From: Methanotrichaceae archaeon
GTDB taxonomy: Archaea > Halobacteriota > Methanosarcinia > Methanotrichales > Methanotrichaceae
Assembly (NCBI GenBank): GCA_016927055.1
Contig: JAFGNK010000171.1
Location: 1-40,212 of the forward strand
DNA length: 40,212 nt
Direction of reading: 5' to 3'
The notes below the pieces were generated by a model that worked only from the letters and a program-made list of their open reading frames with translations, was not told the DNA's origin and did no database searches. Both the position numbers and the translations under genes were made by a program. How positions within the stretch are numbered: position 1 is the stretch's first letter; each line of letters begins with the position of its first letter. Below, piece after piece: positions 95-39,437 of this stretch.

Positions 95-1441
95 TCAGGA
101 AATCCTGCCTAAAAACCAATAAATCAGGAGGATGGCTGATAGGGCCCACAGGTGCAAGTGGGCATTTTGGGGCAGAGAATCGGCATTCTTAAGCCCCTTA
201 GTGTGGCCTGCGTCAAATGCCGACCGGTTTTCAGGTTGGCTTTCTTCATTGGACAGTTTCTTCTGAGCAGATGAACTGTTCGATGAACTATTCGATAAAT
301 TGTTTGCCTTCCTTACCTGTCCCCACTGGGGGTCAATCACATCCACGGAATTGCTCTCGGAGGTCACCTTGTAGGCCTTGCCGCCGATGCTGTATTCTGC
401 AGTGGCACCTGGCAGGATGAGGCTTTCCCTTGCTTTTGTGGCGTTCTTTGGCACGAGGGTATAGTTTTTAAAGATCGTATTCCCAGGCGTGACTGCGATT
501 GAGGACCAGTTTAGATTTGAACCCAATTTCGAGCAATTGCACCCAGTACAATCAAAGCACCTGCTGCGATTGACTTCGAAAAACTCCGCACAAACCTCAT
601 CCGTGAGGTTCACCATCAGGGTTTTCTCTCCTAAATTTCTTATAGAAAGAATGATCTGATAGCTCTTATTGATCTCCATCAAGTCGTTCATGTATTTATG
701 CAGATGAAGCTGGCCGGCAACATCAAAGGTGCAATCGCTTGAGTAATTGCGGACTGTGCCTCTAGTATCCGAAAAATTCACTCTGGCTATTATGTTATAT
801 CTTTTAGGATAAGGCAGGCAAGGTGCTCTAAGCGTTATCTTCTTTGGTTTACGATCGTCGGTCTTGCCCATAATATGAGTCTCGCCTGCACCGATCTGCG
901 AAGTACTGTATTTGAAAACACCATTTTTAAAGCCGCTCATCAACGAAGGGTCTTGGGAACTAACCTCAACATCGATGTCCTCTGCGTCCTCTGTTCCAAC
1001 GTTCTCCATATCAAGCCTGAGAACTATCTCTTCTCCTGGATTGTAAACGTCTTTATCTGAGAATATGTGATGGATCAGATCCGGCCCAGCAGGTAGCCAG
1101 AGGCTGACCTCGGCATGAGGGCCAAGATACACCTCCCCCAGTGGATCGGATACTACGACGCGTCCCACGGTCACATTGACCAGGTCGTCGTCTAGGCAGA
1201 AGCTGTCGTTCTCCCCGAGAATCAGGCTCCGTTCATGGCTTTCATTGGCCAGATTGAGGAGTACCTTCGGACTGGAGGAGTTTTCGCTCGAGAAGGCTTT
1301 CACTGTGACCGTATAATTCTCCAGGATCAGGCTATCGTTCCAGTGGAGATCGCCGCGGGCATAGTCTTGCCATTGCACGGTGGCTGTGCAAGTCGATAAG
1401 AGAAATAGAAGTGGCAAGAGGCGAATTGCGCACATGTTCAT
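95..1441 (-). CDS. Secreted, C-terminally membrane-anchored, sequon-rich CARDB-like protein
   Basis: This 448-residue protein has an N-terminal signal peptide (LLPLLFLLSTCTA) and a hydrophobic C-terminal helix (LHLWALSAILLIYWFLG), so most of it should lie outside the cell, anchored at its C-terminus. The middle contains segments typical of adhesion-like beta-sandwich (CARDB-like) domains, for example YNPGEEIVLRLDMENVG near residue 135. By eye I count about 19 N-x-S/T sequons, with a dense Asn/Ser stalk (NLSNSSSNSSS) just before the anchor, and a cysteine-rich loop (CFDCTGCNC). The ATG overlaps the stop of the upstream gene as ATGA, so the two are probably co-translated. I do not recognise a specific function; an S-layer-associated or surface adhesion role is inference. 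AglB, encoded nearby, is the expected glycosylating enzyme. Confidence 0.75.
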   Translation of the reverse strand: MNMCAIRLLPLLFLLSTCTATVQWQDYARGDLHWNDSLILENYTVTVKAFSSENSSSPKVLLNLANESHERSLILGENDSFCLDDDLVNVTVGRVVVSDPLGEVYLGPHAEVSLWLPAGPDLIHHIFSDKDVYNPGEEIVLRLDMENVGTEDAEDIDVEVSSQDPSLMSGFKNGVFKYSTSQIGAGETHIMGKTDDRKPKKITLRAPCLPYPKRYNIIARVNFSDTRGTVRNYSSDCTFDVAGQLHLHKYMNDLMEINKSYQIILSIRNLGEKTLMVNLTDEVCAEFFEVNRSRCFDCTGCNCSKLGSNLNWSSIAVTPGNTIFKNYTLVPKNATKARESLILPGATAEYSIGGKAYKVTSESNSVDVIDPQWGQVRKANNLSNSSSNSSSAQKKLSNEESQPENRSAFDAGHTKGLKNADSLPQNAHLHLWALSAILLIYWFLGRIS

Positions 1442-2412
1442 CGCCTGAAAGCAAAGTAGATGGTGATCAGGAGCATGAGCAGGTAGATCAATAAGACACT
1501 GCTGTCGTCTCCTTGCGCTTCGCGCATGCCCTCTTCCTGCAGTATATCTTCTTGCAGAGACGGATCTTTAAATTGCAGGGCTGTGATGGAGAGGGGGTCG
1601 TTGGCATCTTCCTTCTGGATAACCTGGATTGCCTCTCCTTTCTGGATCACCTGGATTGGCTCGGGCTCGTTTTGAATCTCAGAGAGGTTCTTGGCTGTTT
1701 CATTGTCTTGGGGCTCTACAGATCTCATTCCTTTTGTAGCAACGAAAGAAAGAGATTCATCGCCGTCGAGGTAGACTCTCTTTGTCTTCTTGTACTCCTG
1801 GTTTGTGATGGGATCAATCCATTTTATCGATACTTCATGATCGCCCTGTTCAAGCTCAACAATAAAGGGATCTTTTTTTCCAGGAATTACATTTCCAACC
1901 TCAATTTTGTCTCGGAAATTCCCGTCAACATATAAGAAAACCTGGGTTTCTTTTTCGGCTTCGTTCTTCACGTAGACTGTTAGCTTATATTTCGGAACTC
2001 TGTATATATAGAATTTAATCCAATCGTTCGTGGAAATATTTTTTTCTTTTATGAGTTGTTTACTTTGTTTAGTTTCAGTATCATACCAATCAATCTTAAA
2101 CTTATGAGTCCCGGCTATTAGATTGTACGAGTATGGTCCAATCTCTGAATTGGGGCTACAAGAATATTGCTCCTTAAAATCTGAATCAACTGATAGATTC
2201 ACATCAAGGTTTGTATCTTGCATATTTTTAAAATAAAAATTTATTTTATATATATCATTATCGCTACTATTTTCGCTAATATTCTCGCTGGCATTTTGGG
2301 CACTGATTGACATTGTGAAAACGATTATTAAGCAAACTAGAACGATTGATAGATGTGTGATTTTCTTTGGGTACTTCTTCTTCCTTTCTGATATCTTTCC
2401 ACCCCCAAGCAA
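1438..2412 (-). CDS. Secreted membrane-anchored hypothetical protein
   Basis: This 324-residue protein has a basic N-terminus followed by a signal/anchor helix (HLSIVLVCLIIVFTMSISAQ), then an extracellular region with about seven N-x-S/T sequons, and a C-terminal membrane helix (VLLIYLLMLLITIYFAF) ending in RR. Two similar beta-rich segments can be seen, each with a pattern like Y..N..VK N.....V.L.VDG.F, which suggests a duplicated Ig-like fold. The ORF start is a TTG and is uncertain; no ATG lies close upstream in frame. It overlaps the following gene by four bases and has the same N- and C-terminal architecture, so the pair probably works together at the cell surface. The upstream half is clearly AT-richer than the rest of the window. 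Function unknown. Confidence 0.7.
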   Translation of the reverse strand: MLGGGKISERKKKYPKKITHLSIVLVCLIIVFTMSISAQNASENISENSSDNDIYKINFYFKNMQDTNLDVNLSVDSDFKEQYSCSPNSEIGPYSYNLIAGTHKFKIDWYDTETKQSKQLIKEKNISTNDWIKFYIYRVPKYKLTVYVKNEAEKETQVFLYVDGNFRDKIEVGNVIPGKKDPFIVELEQGDHEVSIKWIDPITNQEYKKTKRVYLDGDESLSFVATKGMRSVEPQDNETAKNLSEIQNEPEPIQVIQKGEAIQVIQKEDANDPLSITALQFKDPSLQEDILQEEGMREAQGDDSSVLLIYLLMLLITIYFAFRR

Positions 2413-3610: not shown

Positions 3611-5839
3611 TTAAATGGTCAGCTCAATGGTTCTGCCGTTGATTACGTCTTCCTCGCTCACATTAAGATTTTTCATCTTCACGGCATCTTTGTTTCCGGA
3701 GAATACCAAATACGGGTCGACAGCATGGCATCCATATCGGCTCTCTGTAGAGTAAGGAACTCTTATCTCAAATGAGTCACCGTTTGCTTTCGCCTCGTTG
3801 ACGTAAATAAAAGGCCTCCCTTGATTGGATGTCATATTGAGCAGGGCCCCTACCTTCTGGTCAGGCCCGGCCCGAATCCTAATCAGTGCTCCGGGAACAT
3901 ACTCAAAGATCTTAACCTCGCTCTTGGCCGGGCTTTCTCCCAAAAATGTCTTCGATTCATGAATCAGCCGGAAGTGGCCCGTGTCCGCGCCATCGAAGAA
4001 ATAGAGCCTTCCTAATGTCGTATTGAAGAGCCTCTTCTGTGGTATGACCGCGTATTGCGAGCCATAGTCTTCTGCTCTCATATAGCTGCCGAGATCCTCA
4101 TTGATCCAGGTAGTTAGAGACGCAAACTTCTGGTAAATCAGCTTATAATCAGCAAAAATGTATCTGGATCCCCTCGCATCCAGCAGGGCCGTGGCCTCCT
4201 CTTCGCTTTCCGATAGATAGAATTCGGCAGAATCCATCACACCTGCCTGGAAATTGTTGGCTACGACCGGCCGTTCGGCCAGATAGAGGATCCAATTGCC
4301 GTAGTCCCACCAGCTCATAACGCTGTACTCGGCGTTTTCTTGTGGGGACGCAAAGTTGCTGGTTGTTTCGCTGTTTTCTTTCAGCCAGGCAAGCGACTCC
4401 TCCCAGTCTCCAGCCACTGCAGGGGGGGTGCTCTGGGCAAAAGAGATAGCATCCCAGGCGGTAGGCAGCACAAGAAGCAATAATAAAATTGCAGCCAATA
4501 ATGTCGGAGATCCAGTCGGAGATCTTTCTTGTGTAGCTTGTCCCTCCTCTTTGTGCCTCTGGCCGGCATAGTCCAGCAAAAAGAAGAAGAGGATGCTTAT
4601 CAACAGTCCCATGGAGATCGTGGAGACGTAAAGGAACCTGGCCTGTCCTAAGGTGAGAATGAGTGTGGCCGTTGTCCATAGCAAGAGCAGGACCCGGCCC
4701 TGTCTTTTTGCACCACTACTGCGACGGATGTAATTTAAGAAAGCGGCCATTCCTACCAGGGAGAAGAGAATATTCAATCCCAGTTTAGAGAAGATCACCT
4801 GTGAAAAGGTCTCTGAATCATAGATGAGAGGCTCGGCCTCGCCGATCTTTCCAATCATTTCTCCGCCCCATATGTACTGCAATCCGGACTGAATCATGGT
4901 GCCTACACCGAAAAGTCCGCCGGCAAACTGAGTGAGCAGCGCAAATAAGGCGAATATTATCAGGATGCTCAGTGGAAATGCCTTCCAGGATATCTTCGTC
5001 TTCGCCTGGATGAGGGTAAGCGCAAACATGATAGAAAGGGCAATGATCATTGCTCCTATCCCCTGGAAGGATGCAGAGAGCCAGGAAGTGCCAGCAAACG
5101 GCAGAACAAGGATAAAAGCGATAGCAAAGGCGGTCAGGAGTATTGTCGCAATCTCTTTGCATGATTTGCCATCCTTTATGTCCAGTGTCATCTGTATGGC
5201 CGCATAAAGCAGAAATATTGCCAGGTAGATATCCGCCCCCTGCCAGGTATATGCCAGGGCTGCCATGGCAACACCAGCCGCGCTGGCAAAGAGGTACCTC
5301 TTTTCTCTCCGGCTGATGGCCATGACTATGAACAGGAGTGTTATGAGAGAAAGCAGCACCTCCAGGCAGTGGTGATCCAGGGCGGCAAACATCGTATAGA
5401 GGAGATAATATGGTGCCAGGGCGGCCATGAAAGCGGCCAAAAGAGCAATTTTATGGTCGAAGAGCTCTCTGACTATATAATAGACAACTACTATCGCTAT
5501 GATGCCGACGATAATAGGTACAAAGCAGGCCGCATTCTCCACTCCTGCTTTGCTATGCTGGCCCAAAGCCACACAGAGGGCCGCAGATATCTGATCGAAG
5601 AGAGGGGGCCAGGTTATGTCGAATCCATGAGGATAATTCAGGTAAGAGTCGAACCAGAGCGTATGGGGAAAATGGTTTGCAGTAAACAAGATTCTGCGCA
5701 TATGGTAATATTCATCATAACCTGGCAGCAGCACGCCGTTTTCGGTTAATGAGTTTCTCCCTGCAAACAACCTCAACAAGAGGCCAAGGATTAAAACTGC
5801 AAAAAGCTCTGCTGGCTCGCTCCTCTTCCCTTGATCCAT
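3611..5839 (-). CDS. aglB: Dolichyl-phosphooligosaccharide-protein glycotransferase (AglB/STT3)
   Basis: This 742-residue protein is an archaeal oligosaccharyltransferase, which transfers a lipid-linked glycan to Asn in N-x-S/T sequons on the outer face of the membrane. The N-terminal half has about 11-13 membrane helices. The first external loop carries the acidic metal site (GYDEYYHMRR, D42/E43), a second acidic motif is DHHCLE (155-160), and a glutamate-containing loop (IGEAEPLIY, 332-340) is the likely counterpart of the SVSE/TIXE motif. The soluble C-terminal domain has the diagnostic WWDYG (510-514) and a lysine-containing segment ADYKLIYQKF resembling the DK motif. The length is a little short of the larger AglB proteins. 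The gene is monocistronic with its own TATA box. Several sequon-rich secreted proteins in this window are plausible substrates. Confidence 0.93.
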   Translation of the reverse strand: MDQGKRSEPAELFAVLILGLLLRLFAGRNSLTENGVLLPGYDEYYHMRRILFTANHFPHTLWFDSYLNYPHGFDITWPPLFDQISAALCVALGQHSKAGVENAACFVPIIVGIIAIVVVYYIVRELFDHKIALLAAFMAALAPYYLLYTMFAALDHHCLEVLLSLITLLFIVMAISRREKRYLFASAAGVAMAALAYTWQGADIYLAIFLLYAAIQMTLDIKDGKSCKEIATILLTAFAIAFILVLPFAGTSWLSASFQGIGAMIIALSIMFALTLIQAKTKISWKAFPLSILIIFALFALLTQFAGGLFGVGTMIQSGLQYIWGGEMIGKIGEAEPLIYDSETFSQVIFSKLGLNILFSLVGMAAFLNYIRRSSGAKRQGRVLLLLWTTATLILTLGQARFLYVSTISMGLLISILFFFLLDYAGQRHKEEGQATQERSPTGSPTLLAAILLLLLVLPTAWDAISFAQSTPPAVAGDWEESLAWLKENSETTSNFASPQENAEYSVMSWWDYGNWILYLAERPVVANNFQAGVMDSAEFYLSESEEEATALLDARGSRYIFADYKLIYQKFASLTTWINEDLGSYMRAEDYGSQYAVIPQKRLFNTTLGRLYFFDGADTGHFRLIHESKTFLGESPAKSEVKIFEYVPGALIRIRAGPDQKVGALLNMTSNQGRPFIYVNEAKANGDSFEIRVPYSTESRYGCHAVDPYLVFSGNKDAVKMKNLNVSEEDVINGRTIELTI

Positions 5840-37439: not shown

Positions 37440-38783
37440 ATGAGCCCGTCAGATACGAAACCCATGATTCCAGCCGTCCTCATCGCAGGCACCCACAGCG
37501 GCGTGGGCAAGACCACAGTCACTTTGGGCCTCATGGCTGCGCTTCGCGCTCGCGGCCTGGTGGTTCAGCCCTTCAAGGTGGGCCCGGACTTCATCGACCC
37601 GTCTCATCATACTGCTGTCTGCGGCCGCCCCTCCCGCAATCTCGATCCCTTTATGATGGGCGAGGATGGCGTGCGCCGCTCTTTCTGCTCGGCTCTTGCC
37701 GGGGCGGACGTGGCCGTGGTGGAAGGTGTCATGGGCCTTTTCGACGGGATGGACGGAACTGACGTGAGCAGCTCCGCTCAGGTGGCCAAGATCCTGAATA
37801 TCCCGGTTCTTCTGGTCATAAATGTGCACGGCATGTCGCGCAGTGCGGCAGCCATGGAGAAGGGCTTTGCGGAATTTGACCCCTGCATGCGTCTGGCCGG
37901 CACCATTCTCAATCAGGTGGGAAGCGAGCGTCACCTATCCATGCTGAAAAGCTGCATGGACAGGCCCATATTCGCCGCTCTGCCCCGGGAGAGGGAGATG
38001 GAGATGAAGAGCCGCCACCTTGGATTGGTGATGGGCTTTGAGAAGGAGCATGATGTGCAAGCGTTGGCCTCCTGGCTGGAAGGCCATGCCGCCATCGACG
38101 AGATCCTGAAGCTTGCTTCTCCCCCCTGTCCGGCGCGGGAAGAGGTGTCTCCCGTCGAGAAGTCAGTGCGCATAGGCATTGCCCAGGATGATGCCTTTTG
38201 CTTTTATTACTACGAGAATTTGCGCGAATTGGAGAGGCGGGGCGCAGAGCTGGTCTTCTTCAGCCCGTTGCAGGACGATCTGCCCGATGTGGACGGCCTT
38301 TACATTGGGGGTGGCTATCCGGAGCTGCATGCCGCCCGGCTGGAAGCAGCTCCTGCCCGAAGACAGGTTAAGCGGGCCTCAGAAGAGGGCATGCCTATCT
38401 ACGGAGAGTGCGGCGGGCTGATGTACCTGGGCCGCGCCATCGAGCTGGAGACTGGCACTTTTAGAATGGTAGGGGCTCTACCTGGCTCTACTATTATGAC
38501 TAAACGGCTGGCTGCTCTGGGGTATGCCAAGGCGCAGGCAATAAGAGACAATCCCGTGGCAGGGCTGGGCGAGACTCTTCGCGGGCATGAGTTTCATTAC
38601 TCTCGATTTGAGTGTGAAGAGGACGCTCGCTTCGCTTACCGGCTATGCAGAGGCAAAGGCATCAAGGATGGCTGGGATGGCCTGGTGGAGTACAATACCC
38701 TGGGTGGGTACCTGCATGCTCATTTCTATTCCTTTTCCGTGGATCGGTTCATTGAGAGCTGCAAGCGCTATCGGAAAACATAA
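37440..38783 (+). CDS. Cobyrinate a,c-diamide synthase-type amidotransferase (CbiA/CfbB)
   Basis: This 447-residue enzyme amidates the a and c side chains of a tetrapyrrole using glutamine and ATP. The N-terminal P-loop is GTHSGVGKTTVT (17-28), with KVGPDFIDPSHH and EGVMGLFDG as further synthetase motifs. The C-terminal class I-like amidotransferase domain has GGGYPELH, the nucleophile C324 in YGECGGLMYLG, and the histidine region YLHAHFYS (about 424-431). Methanogens have two paralogues: CbiA, acting on cobyrinate, and CfbB, acting on Ni-sirohydrochlorin for F430; I cannot tell which this is. AAAGGAT just before the ATG supports the start. It is divergent from the DUF166-fum operon. Confidence 0.9.
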   Translation: MSPSDTKPMIPAVLIAGTHSGVGKTTVTLGLMAALRARGLVVQPFKVGPDFIDPSHHTAVCGRPSRNLDPFMMGEDGVRRSFCSALAGADVAVVEGVMGLFDGMDGTDVSSSAQVAKILNIPVLLVINVHGMSRSAAAMEKGFAEFDPCMRLAGTILNQVGSERHLSMLKSCMDRPIFAALPREREMEMKSRHLGLVMGFEKEHDVQALASWLEGHAAIDEILKLASPPCPAREEVSPVEKSVRIGIAQDDAFCFYYYENLRELERRGAELVFFSPLQDDLPDVDGLYIGGGYPELHAARLEAAPARRQVKRASEEGMPIYGECGGLMYLGRAIELETGTFRMVGALPGSTIMTKRLAALGYAKAQAIRDNPVAGLGETLRGHEFHYSRFECEEDARFAYRLCRGKGIKDGWDGLVEYNTLGGYLHAHFYSFSVDRFIESCKRYRKT

Positions 38784-39133
38784 CCTGAGAGGCAAGGGGC
38801 TATGGAGCTGAACTGTTAGGTGAATTCTCAAAGGATATATGTGGTTTCTCTATCACCATGAATGAATAATATGTTCGCGATCAGCTCATTGAAATTCATT
38901 TTCTGATAAAAAGGCATGAGTTCTCTCTGGGGTGCAATTTTATTTCATATTTATTTCTAAATGATGAGGGATTGAATGTGATGTACTGTATATTATCGTT
39001 TTCTATTCGGCAAAAATACATAGAATATTGACAAAAGCCTGTCGCATTGTAAAATATATAGATTCGTTATGGAGAAAAGCTTAAATGCAGATTGGTGTCC
39101 ATATAGCTCCATAACGCAAATGGAGTGTAAACT
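38784..39133 (+). other. A+T-rich intergenic region upstream of the sequon-repeat gene
   Basis: This 350-base stretch has no convincing ORF; the antisense ORF 38993-39490 owes its length to the repetitive NxT coding sequence downstream. It contains the promoter of the 39134 gene near its right end. I see no RNA gene or inverted repeat of note in the rest. Confidence 0.5.
39073..39087 (+). promoter_or_regulatory. BRE/TATA promoter of the sequon-repeat gene
   Basis: The sequence agaaaagcttaaatg has a purine-rich BRE and a TATA-like core about 50 bases before the ATG at 39134, leaving room for a short leader with GGAGTG before the start. A second AT-rich candidate (aaaatatatag) lies about 25 bases further upstream. 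Confidence 0.42.
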
Positions 39134-39373
39134 ATGAGCAAAATAACAAGCGGAATTGTGCTCTTCTCTCTCCTGATGGCCCTCTCTTTGGGAGTTGCCT
39201 TCGCTGAGTCCGAAGTTGCCGAAGTTGTTGAAGTAACCGAGAACGCCACCAACCTTACAAACCTCACTAATGCTACCAACCTCACCAACGTCACCATCGA
39301 CATCAACCAGACAAACGAGACCATTGAGGTAGTCGAAGAGGCAACCGAAGAGCCAGTCGCCGAGGCAGAGTAA
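39134..39373 (+). CDS. Small secreted protein with contiguous N-glycosylation sequons
   Basis: This 79-residue protein has a clear signal peptide (ITSGIVLFSLLMALSLGVAFA, cleavage near residue 24) and a mature part of only about 55 residues. Residues 37-54 are six back-to-back NxT tripeptides (NATNLTNLTNATNLTNVT), and two more sequons (NQT, NET) follow, so eight sequons occupy 27 residues. The flanks are very acidic (SEVAEVVEVTE and EVVEEATEEPVAEAE). GGAGTG precedes the ATG, there is a promoter upstream and a terminator downstream, so it is a real single gene. A heavily glycosylated, mucin-like surface or matrix protein is inference. The next gene has a similar acidic stretch. Confidence 0.72.
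   Translation: MSKITSGIVLFSLLMALSLGVAFAESEVAEVVEVTENATNLTNLTNATNLTNVTIDINQTNETIEVVEEATEEPVAEAE
39242..39295 (+). repeat. Six tandem NxT codon triplets
   Basis: A 9-base unit (Asn-x-Thr codons, such as aacctcacc and aatgctacc) is repeated six times without interruption. Codons vary between units, so selection on the peptide, rather than very recent slippage, has probably kept the pattern. Confidence 0.75.
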
Positions 39374-39406: not shown

Positions 39407-39437
39407 GCCGGGCAGGATCTTCCTGCCGGCAATTTTT
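39407..39437 (+). terminator. Stem-loop with T-run after the sequon-repeat gene
   Basis: The arms gccgg-g-cagga and tcctg-ccggc form a ten-pair stem with one bulged G and a TCT loop, followed by aattttt. It lies 34 bases after the stop and resembles an intrinsic terminator. Confidence 0.6.

Follow-up and report, generated by a model that had tools for sequence, protein, structure and literature searches.

The open reading frame at 39134-39373(+) of the analysed window, a stretch of 40,212 nucleotides that constitutes contig C202 of a 2.37 Mb genome of the Methanotrichaceae, is a real gene, and the secreted sequon-array mini-proteins to which its product of 79 amino acids belongs are a real gene family that is apparently undescribed. 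We read the product as a small, secreted and disordered peptide that bears several N-glycans in the cell envelope or matrix of Methanotrichaceae, with a probability of roughly 0.6, glycosylation, expression and location all being deduced from genomic evidence. Methanothrix ranks among the main producers of methane from acetate and forms the filaments of anaerobic granules, and to our knowledge the filling of its envelope and matrix is poorly known.

Gene and predicted product

The gene (39134..39373, +) translates as MSKITSGIVLFSLLMALSLGVAFAESEVAEVVEVTENATNLTNLTNATNLTNVTIDINQTNETIEVVEEATEEPVAEAE, followed by a stop codon. Ortholog alignment and structure model agree on a signal peptide in residues 1-24 (39134..39205, +) with predicted cleavage between AFA and ES. 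A hydrophobic helix is modelled at residues 3-27, Ala stands at -3 in 22/22 orthologs and the residue at -1 is always Ala, Gly or Ser, which together are the marks of a Sec signal peptide. The mature peptide (39206..39370, +), beginning with the Glu after AFA, comprises 55 residues with a mass of 5.95 kDa and a pI of ~4.05; it is acidic and devoid of Cys, aromatic residues, Lys and Arg, and the structure model (pLDDT <50 over residues 34-74) predicts disorder. None of the 20 orthologs examined has a Cys in its mature part, and hence none has the lipobox Cys of an archaeal lipoprotein.

Eight NxT sequons occupy residues 37-63 (39242..39322, +). The first six are contiguous, with Asn at N37, N40, N43, N46, N49 and N52 (NAT-NLT-NLT-NAT-NLT-NVT), and are followed by N58 (NQT) and N61 (NET); Pro occurs at X in none of them, and 8/8 Asn of the mini-protein lie in sequons. 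When its residues were shuffled 10,000 times, a mean of 1.5 sequons was obtained and eight were never reached. The translation thus bears out the sequence-only reading, which had counted eight sequons within 27 residues, six of them adjoining, in a mature part of about 55 residues. Since the six contiguous units are spelled with unlike codons (AACGCCACC AACCTTACA AACCTCACT AATGCTACC AACCTCACC AACGTCACC), the array is not a fresh DNA repeat.

Searches of Pfam and NCBIfam gave no match to the mini-protein above the curated cut-offs, and PF00932 did not match it either. With 55 residues and predicted disorder it does not fall among the structural proteins of the sheath (SH), which have an amyloid-like beta core and comprise 150-350 residues without Ig domains (size range: PMC11576556).

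Locus structure and distribution

In an upstream alignment of 22 loci the gene is preceded by a BRE/TATA-like conserved archaeal promoter element, GAGAAAAGCTTAAATGCA (39072..39089, +), and by a conserved leader with a Shine-Dalgarno sequence, AAATGGAGTGTAAACT (39118..39133, +); the element (GAGAAAAGYTTAAATGCA) and the leader with AAATGGAGTGT are nearly invariant across the aligned loci. Downstream lies a terminator-like hairpin, GGCAGGATCTTCCTGCC, with a T-rich tail (39411..39437, +), recognisable in most orthologous loci as GGCAGG...CCTGCC followed by T-rich sequence. The order of genes in the aligned loci is cfbB, mini-protein, secreted lamin-tail-domain (LTD) protein. The upstream neighbour in the window is a cfbB-type a,c-diamide synthase of F430 biosynthesis (37440..38783, +), recovered automatically in 21/22 loci and seen upstream in the remaining one; the downstream neighbour, present in 22/22, is a secreted protein with a PF00932 domain (2.3e-11) and a sequon-rich N-terminal linker, which runs off the contig (39542..40212, +). 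As the mini-gene has its own promoter, leader and terminator, and the LTD gene a separate TATA-like element upstream, these conserved elements suggest that it is transcribed as a unit of its own, possibly at a high level.

A profile built from 16 orthologs found strong matches (E <1e-10) in 22/26 genomes of the genus Methanothrix; the named genomes with the closest relatives are MAGs of Methanothrix/Methanosaeta. Of the four genomes without a strong match, G022 and G010 are also without a cfbB ortholog, so that an assembly gap is the likely reason for the apparent absence, and G005 and G008 are both <60% complete. Five other genera of the family have diverged members (in G035, G026, G032, G027 and G030, the last a weak match with E 9.7e-4), and in G035, G027, G032 and G030 they lie 3' of cfbB. 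Several members outside the genus are much longer and carry other repeats, such as NETAK in G032, NNTTK types in G027 and AENATEVVE in G030; the syntenic relatives L051/L152 (G032) and L053/L151 (G027) are expanded, with 18-19 sequons, and their repeat units are quite different. In genera g5, g9, g4 and g10 cfbB is present and no such ORF was found downstream of it, and in g7 an LTD-like protein occupies the site 3' of cfbB in place of the mini-protein. As several genera lack the gene, its function is not essential to the family. In one ortholog, L052 (G009), the aligned frame is interrupted by a stop and the start is altered, which may mean that the copy is decaying or that the assembly is in error.

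The sequence-only reading had suggested a check for conservation in relatives and had made its case depend on conservation and expression; as regards conservation, the orthologs in the genus and in other genera uphold it. A chance ORF or a pseudogene was considered as well and was ruled out by orthologs, synteny and promoter. Our literature search found neither a description of the family nor expression data for it; transcriptomes of Mx. thermoacetophila exist.

Selection on sequons and conservation of the signal peptide

Across the 22 orthologs the mature part measures 43-55 residues and holds 6-10 sequons, one per 5.9 residues. Asn is placed in a sequon in 176/178 cases, where shuffled sequences give 42.7 (maximum 62); for comparison, the corresponding numbers in the neighbouring protein are 50/159 for the LTD domain and 97/112 for the linker. 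The mature part otherwise diverges freely in length, in X residues and in repeat period (3, 4, 5, 8); the window and G004 have period 3, most others have period 4, and the rest are mixed. In gapless close pairs, whose counts of changes are not independent because pairs share sequences, the sequon Asn changed in 2/58 cases and Thr/Ser in 2/58, against 13/52 at X and 34/158 at other positions, so that Asn and Thr/Ser change ~7 times less than X. Gapped pairs gave the same order (N 11%, T/S 10%, X 47%, other 33%). As Asn and Thr/Ser stay stable while period and X vary, it is the number of sequons that is preserved and not a particular sequence, and this pattern is as expected from selection for sequon number. 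The sequence-only reading had taken codon variation between the units as a sign of selection; that argument is weak alone, and its conclusion now stands on the resistance of Asn and Thr/Ser to change relative to X and spacer.

The signal peptide is conserved in another manner. For the same pairs of genomes, its median pS was 0.28, compared with 0.59 in the signal peptide of the LTD neighbour and 0.66 in cfbB, and the respective pN values were 0.11, 0.30 and 0.18. Synonymous sites are strongly conserved over codons 2-25 of the mini-gene, where some positions show a single codon in 21-22/22 genomes (GGA at Gly20 in 22/22, GCC at Ala22 in 21/22). Very high expression or a constraint on translation start would fit as the cause of this low pS, and the glycopeptide model accounts for it solely via high expression.

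Sequon runs elsewhere and the expected enzyme

Four-fold adjacent NxT runs, of which the sequence-only reading had proposed a search, occur with period 3 in 21/394 and with period 4 in 60/394 genomes of the phylum, which rules out that adjacent sequons are unique to the mini-protein. Part of these runs lies in non-coding or wrong-frame DNA, and the coding ones belong for the most part to larger surface proteins or lipoprotein-like sequences, as their linkers or tails. The earlier statement that no described family resembles the mini-protein therefore has to be divided: it agrees with the lack of a Pfam or NCBIfam match, whereas the runs in other archaeal surface proteins mean that the chemistry is not unique. 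What is new is the stand-alone, syntenic, genus-wide peptide.

Other small secreted Methanothrix proteins with sequon clusters were also seen (L104, L105 and L175), the last, at ~30000 on contig C76 of the window's genome (G000), having 121 aa and 11 sequons (NNVTMNNTTLLNNTTLNATLNETFNAT) and no Pfam match. In the same genome L178 (C113, ~2200) contains an imperfect NVTQNETLNATA repeat with period-4 sequons. Short lipoprotein-like proteins of other families of the phylum (L134, L130 and L133, with 94, 102 and 192 aa) end in tails of NxT/S runs and are a possible anchored counterpart.

The enzyme expected to modify the sequons is an AglB oligosaccharyltransferase encoded in the window itself (3611..5839, -) by an intact gene with STT3, AglB core and L1 domains and the WWDYG motif, which is not linked with the mini-gene in an operon; contig C121 of the same genome (G000:C121) encodes another STT3, also with WWDYG. 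With a predicted Sec signal peptide, NxS/T sequons free of Pro at X and AglB in the genome, the mini-protein is a candidate AglB-type N-glycoprotein. Near the AglB gene two adjacent sequon-rich proteins without a Pfam match are encoded at 95-1441(-), with 19 sequons or 4.2 per 100 residues, and at 1438-2313(-), with seven or 2.4 per 100 residues.

As to whether so dense an array may be filled, a precedent is the thread subunit of Sulfolobus, in which full N-glycans sit on both N80 and N83, at a spacing of three residues (PMC9715654); at least one archaeon thus has an AglB-type enzyme able to glycosylate adjacent sequons. Human STT3A often skips closely spaced sites, NxS above all, NxT being the better sequon (PMC4750078). 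The sheath of a Methanosaeta (Methanothrix) has been reported as an N-glycoprotein with a rhamnosyl link, at a non-canonical Asn-Glu-Gly-Ser (PMC2952790).

Alternative explanations

The low-complexity array could be suspected of being a slippage product, i.e. a drifting tandem repeat that spells NxT by chance, and the differences in unit period between species are indeed what repeat turnover predicts. However, NxT/S is kept at every period (3, 4, 5, 8), the units differ in codons and change is concentrated at X, a substitution pattern by which slippage is for practical purposes already refuted. That the mini-protein is instead an N-terminal piece left over or split off from an LTD surface protein, a sequon linker without its domain and with little function of its own, is suggested by the same lay-out of signal peptide and sequon linker in the neighbouring protein, by a weak match of the mini-protein profile to LTD N-termini, and by one other genus in which a single LTD-like protein (L163) with a mini-protein-like signal peptide comes after cfbB. 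The likeness of low-complexity tails is no proof of descent, though, and a gene with its own promoter, Shine-Dalgarno sequence, terminator and conserved start, strongly conserved in 22/26 genus genomes and with purifying selection on its sequons, makes a remnant improbable; from sequence comparison, an LTD-protein fragment may be the origin of the mini-protein, though not its present state.

Two further readings start from the signal peptide. If it were left uncut, it would be an N-terminal membrane anchor, and the protein would be a glycan brush fixed to the membrane instead of a free glycopeptide. This hydrophobic segment varies far less than the mature part and than the signal peptide of the neighbour (pN 0.11 vs 0.30), an unusual trait in a segment that is merely cut off; yet the small residues at -3 and -1, kept in 22/22 orthologs, are typical of a signal peptidase I site, and a role at the protein level does not need the conservation of synonymous sites that is also observed, so that we regard an anchor as unlikely while granting it some weight. 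The strong synonymous-site conservation in codons 2-25 would in turn be accounted for if the RNA of the 5' leader and signal peptide, as a regulatory element or small RNA, were the conserved part and the sequon tail a by-product. No Rfam family was matched (best E 0.16, below cut-off), covariation was slight, with compensatory change in 2/18 pairs, the folding z-score was -1.4, and the resistance of sequon Asn and Thr to change would be left unexplained; such an RNA element is thus very improbable as the whole explanation.

Proposed role

The glycopeptide reading, which we prefer, would have a short single-gene message made from the gene's own conserved promoter, as the conserved elements suggest, and the product exported by Sec through a standard signal peptide cut after AFA, to which the invariant -3/-1 pattern points. 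The disordered tail of 43-55 residues would be a mere scaffold for 6-10 N-glycans from AglB and, if most sites were filled, there would be roughly as much sugar as protein; the glycan of Methanococcus voltae has 779 Da (PMC2952790), and with one such glycan at each of eight sites the sugar mass would equal the peptide mass. The product may be sited between membrane, S-layer and sheath, or in the extracellular matrix, and could contribute hydration, negative charge, filler or shielding; in short, sugars carried by the mini-protein probably coat or fill the cell envelope. As no anchor is visible, retention at the surface would fall to the sheath or to binding partners, possibly including the neighbouring LTD protein, which is a guess.

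Tentatively, and with the odds somewhat against it, we would go further and propose a dedicated archaeal family of secreted mini-proteoglycans, in which the peptide is the carrier for exceptionally dense AglB N-glycans and forms a matrix polymer of Methanothrix filaments that is either soluble or trapped in the sheath, the RNA of leader and signal peptide being separately selected for very high output. With one sequon for every six residues, a stand-alone peptide would offer a natural test of the density at which AglB can work, and a sequon-array peptide could serve as a ready-made scaffold for glycopeptides. Selection is seen here to act on how many glycosylation sites there are, and not on a folded structure.

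Comparison with known systems

Among known systems, the S-layer glycoproteins of Sulfolobus and Haloferax share secretion and NxS/T sequons with the mini-protein, theirs being multiply N-glycosylated by AglB where glycosylation of the mini-protein is predicted, but they are large folded lattice proteins. The thread subunit Saci_0406 is Sec-exported and cut by signal peptidase I, as is predicted for the mini-protein, and has two sequons three residues apart that are both occupied (PMC9715654); it differs in being a folded filament subunit of ~206 residues with five glycans. Adjacent NxT at period 3 or 4, as in the mini-protein, is also found in other Halobacteriota, in the lipoprotein-like L130, L133 and L134 with their AGC motif and in L093, L102 and L138, yet these runs are mostly parts of larger or apparently lipid-anchored proteins, whereas the mini-protein is a conserved stand-alone peptide. 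The LTD neighbour in Methanothrix shares the succession of a signal peptide and a sequon-rich acidic linker and differs by its folded PF00932 domain. Small secreted peptides whose repeats are glycosylation sites are otherwise represented by the antifreeze glycoproteins, with their Ala-Ala-Thr repeats, and by the arabinogalactan peptides of plants; both are eukaryotic and O-glycosylated, and hence resemble the mini-protein by analogy only.
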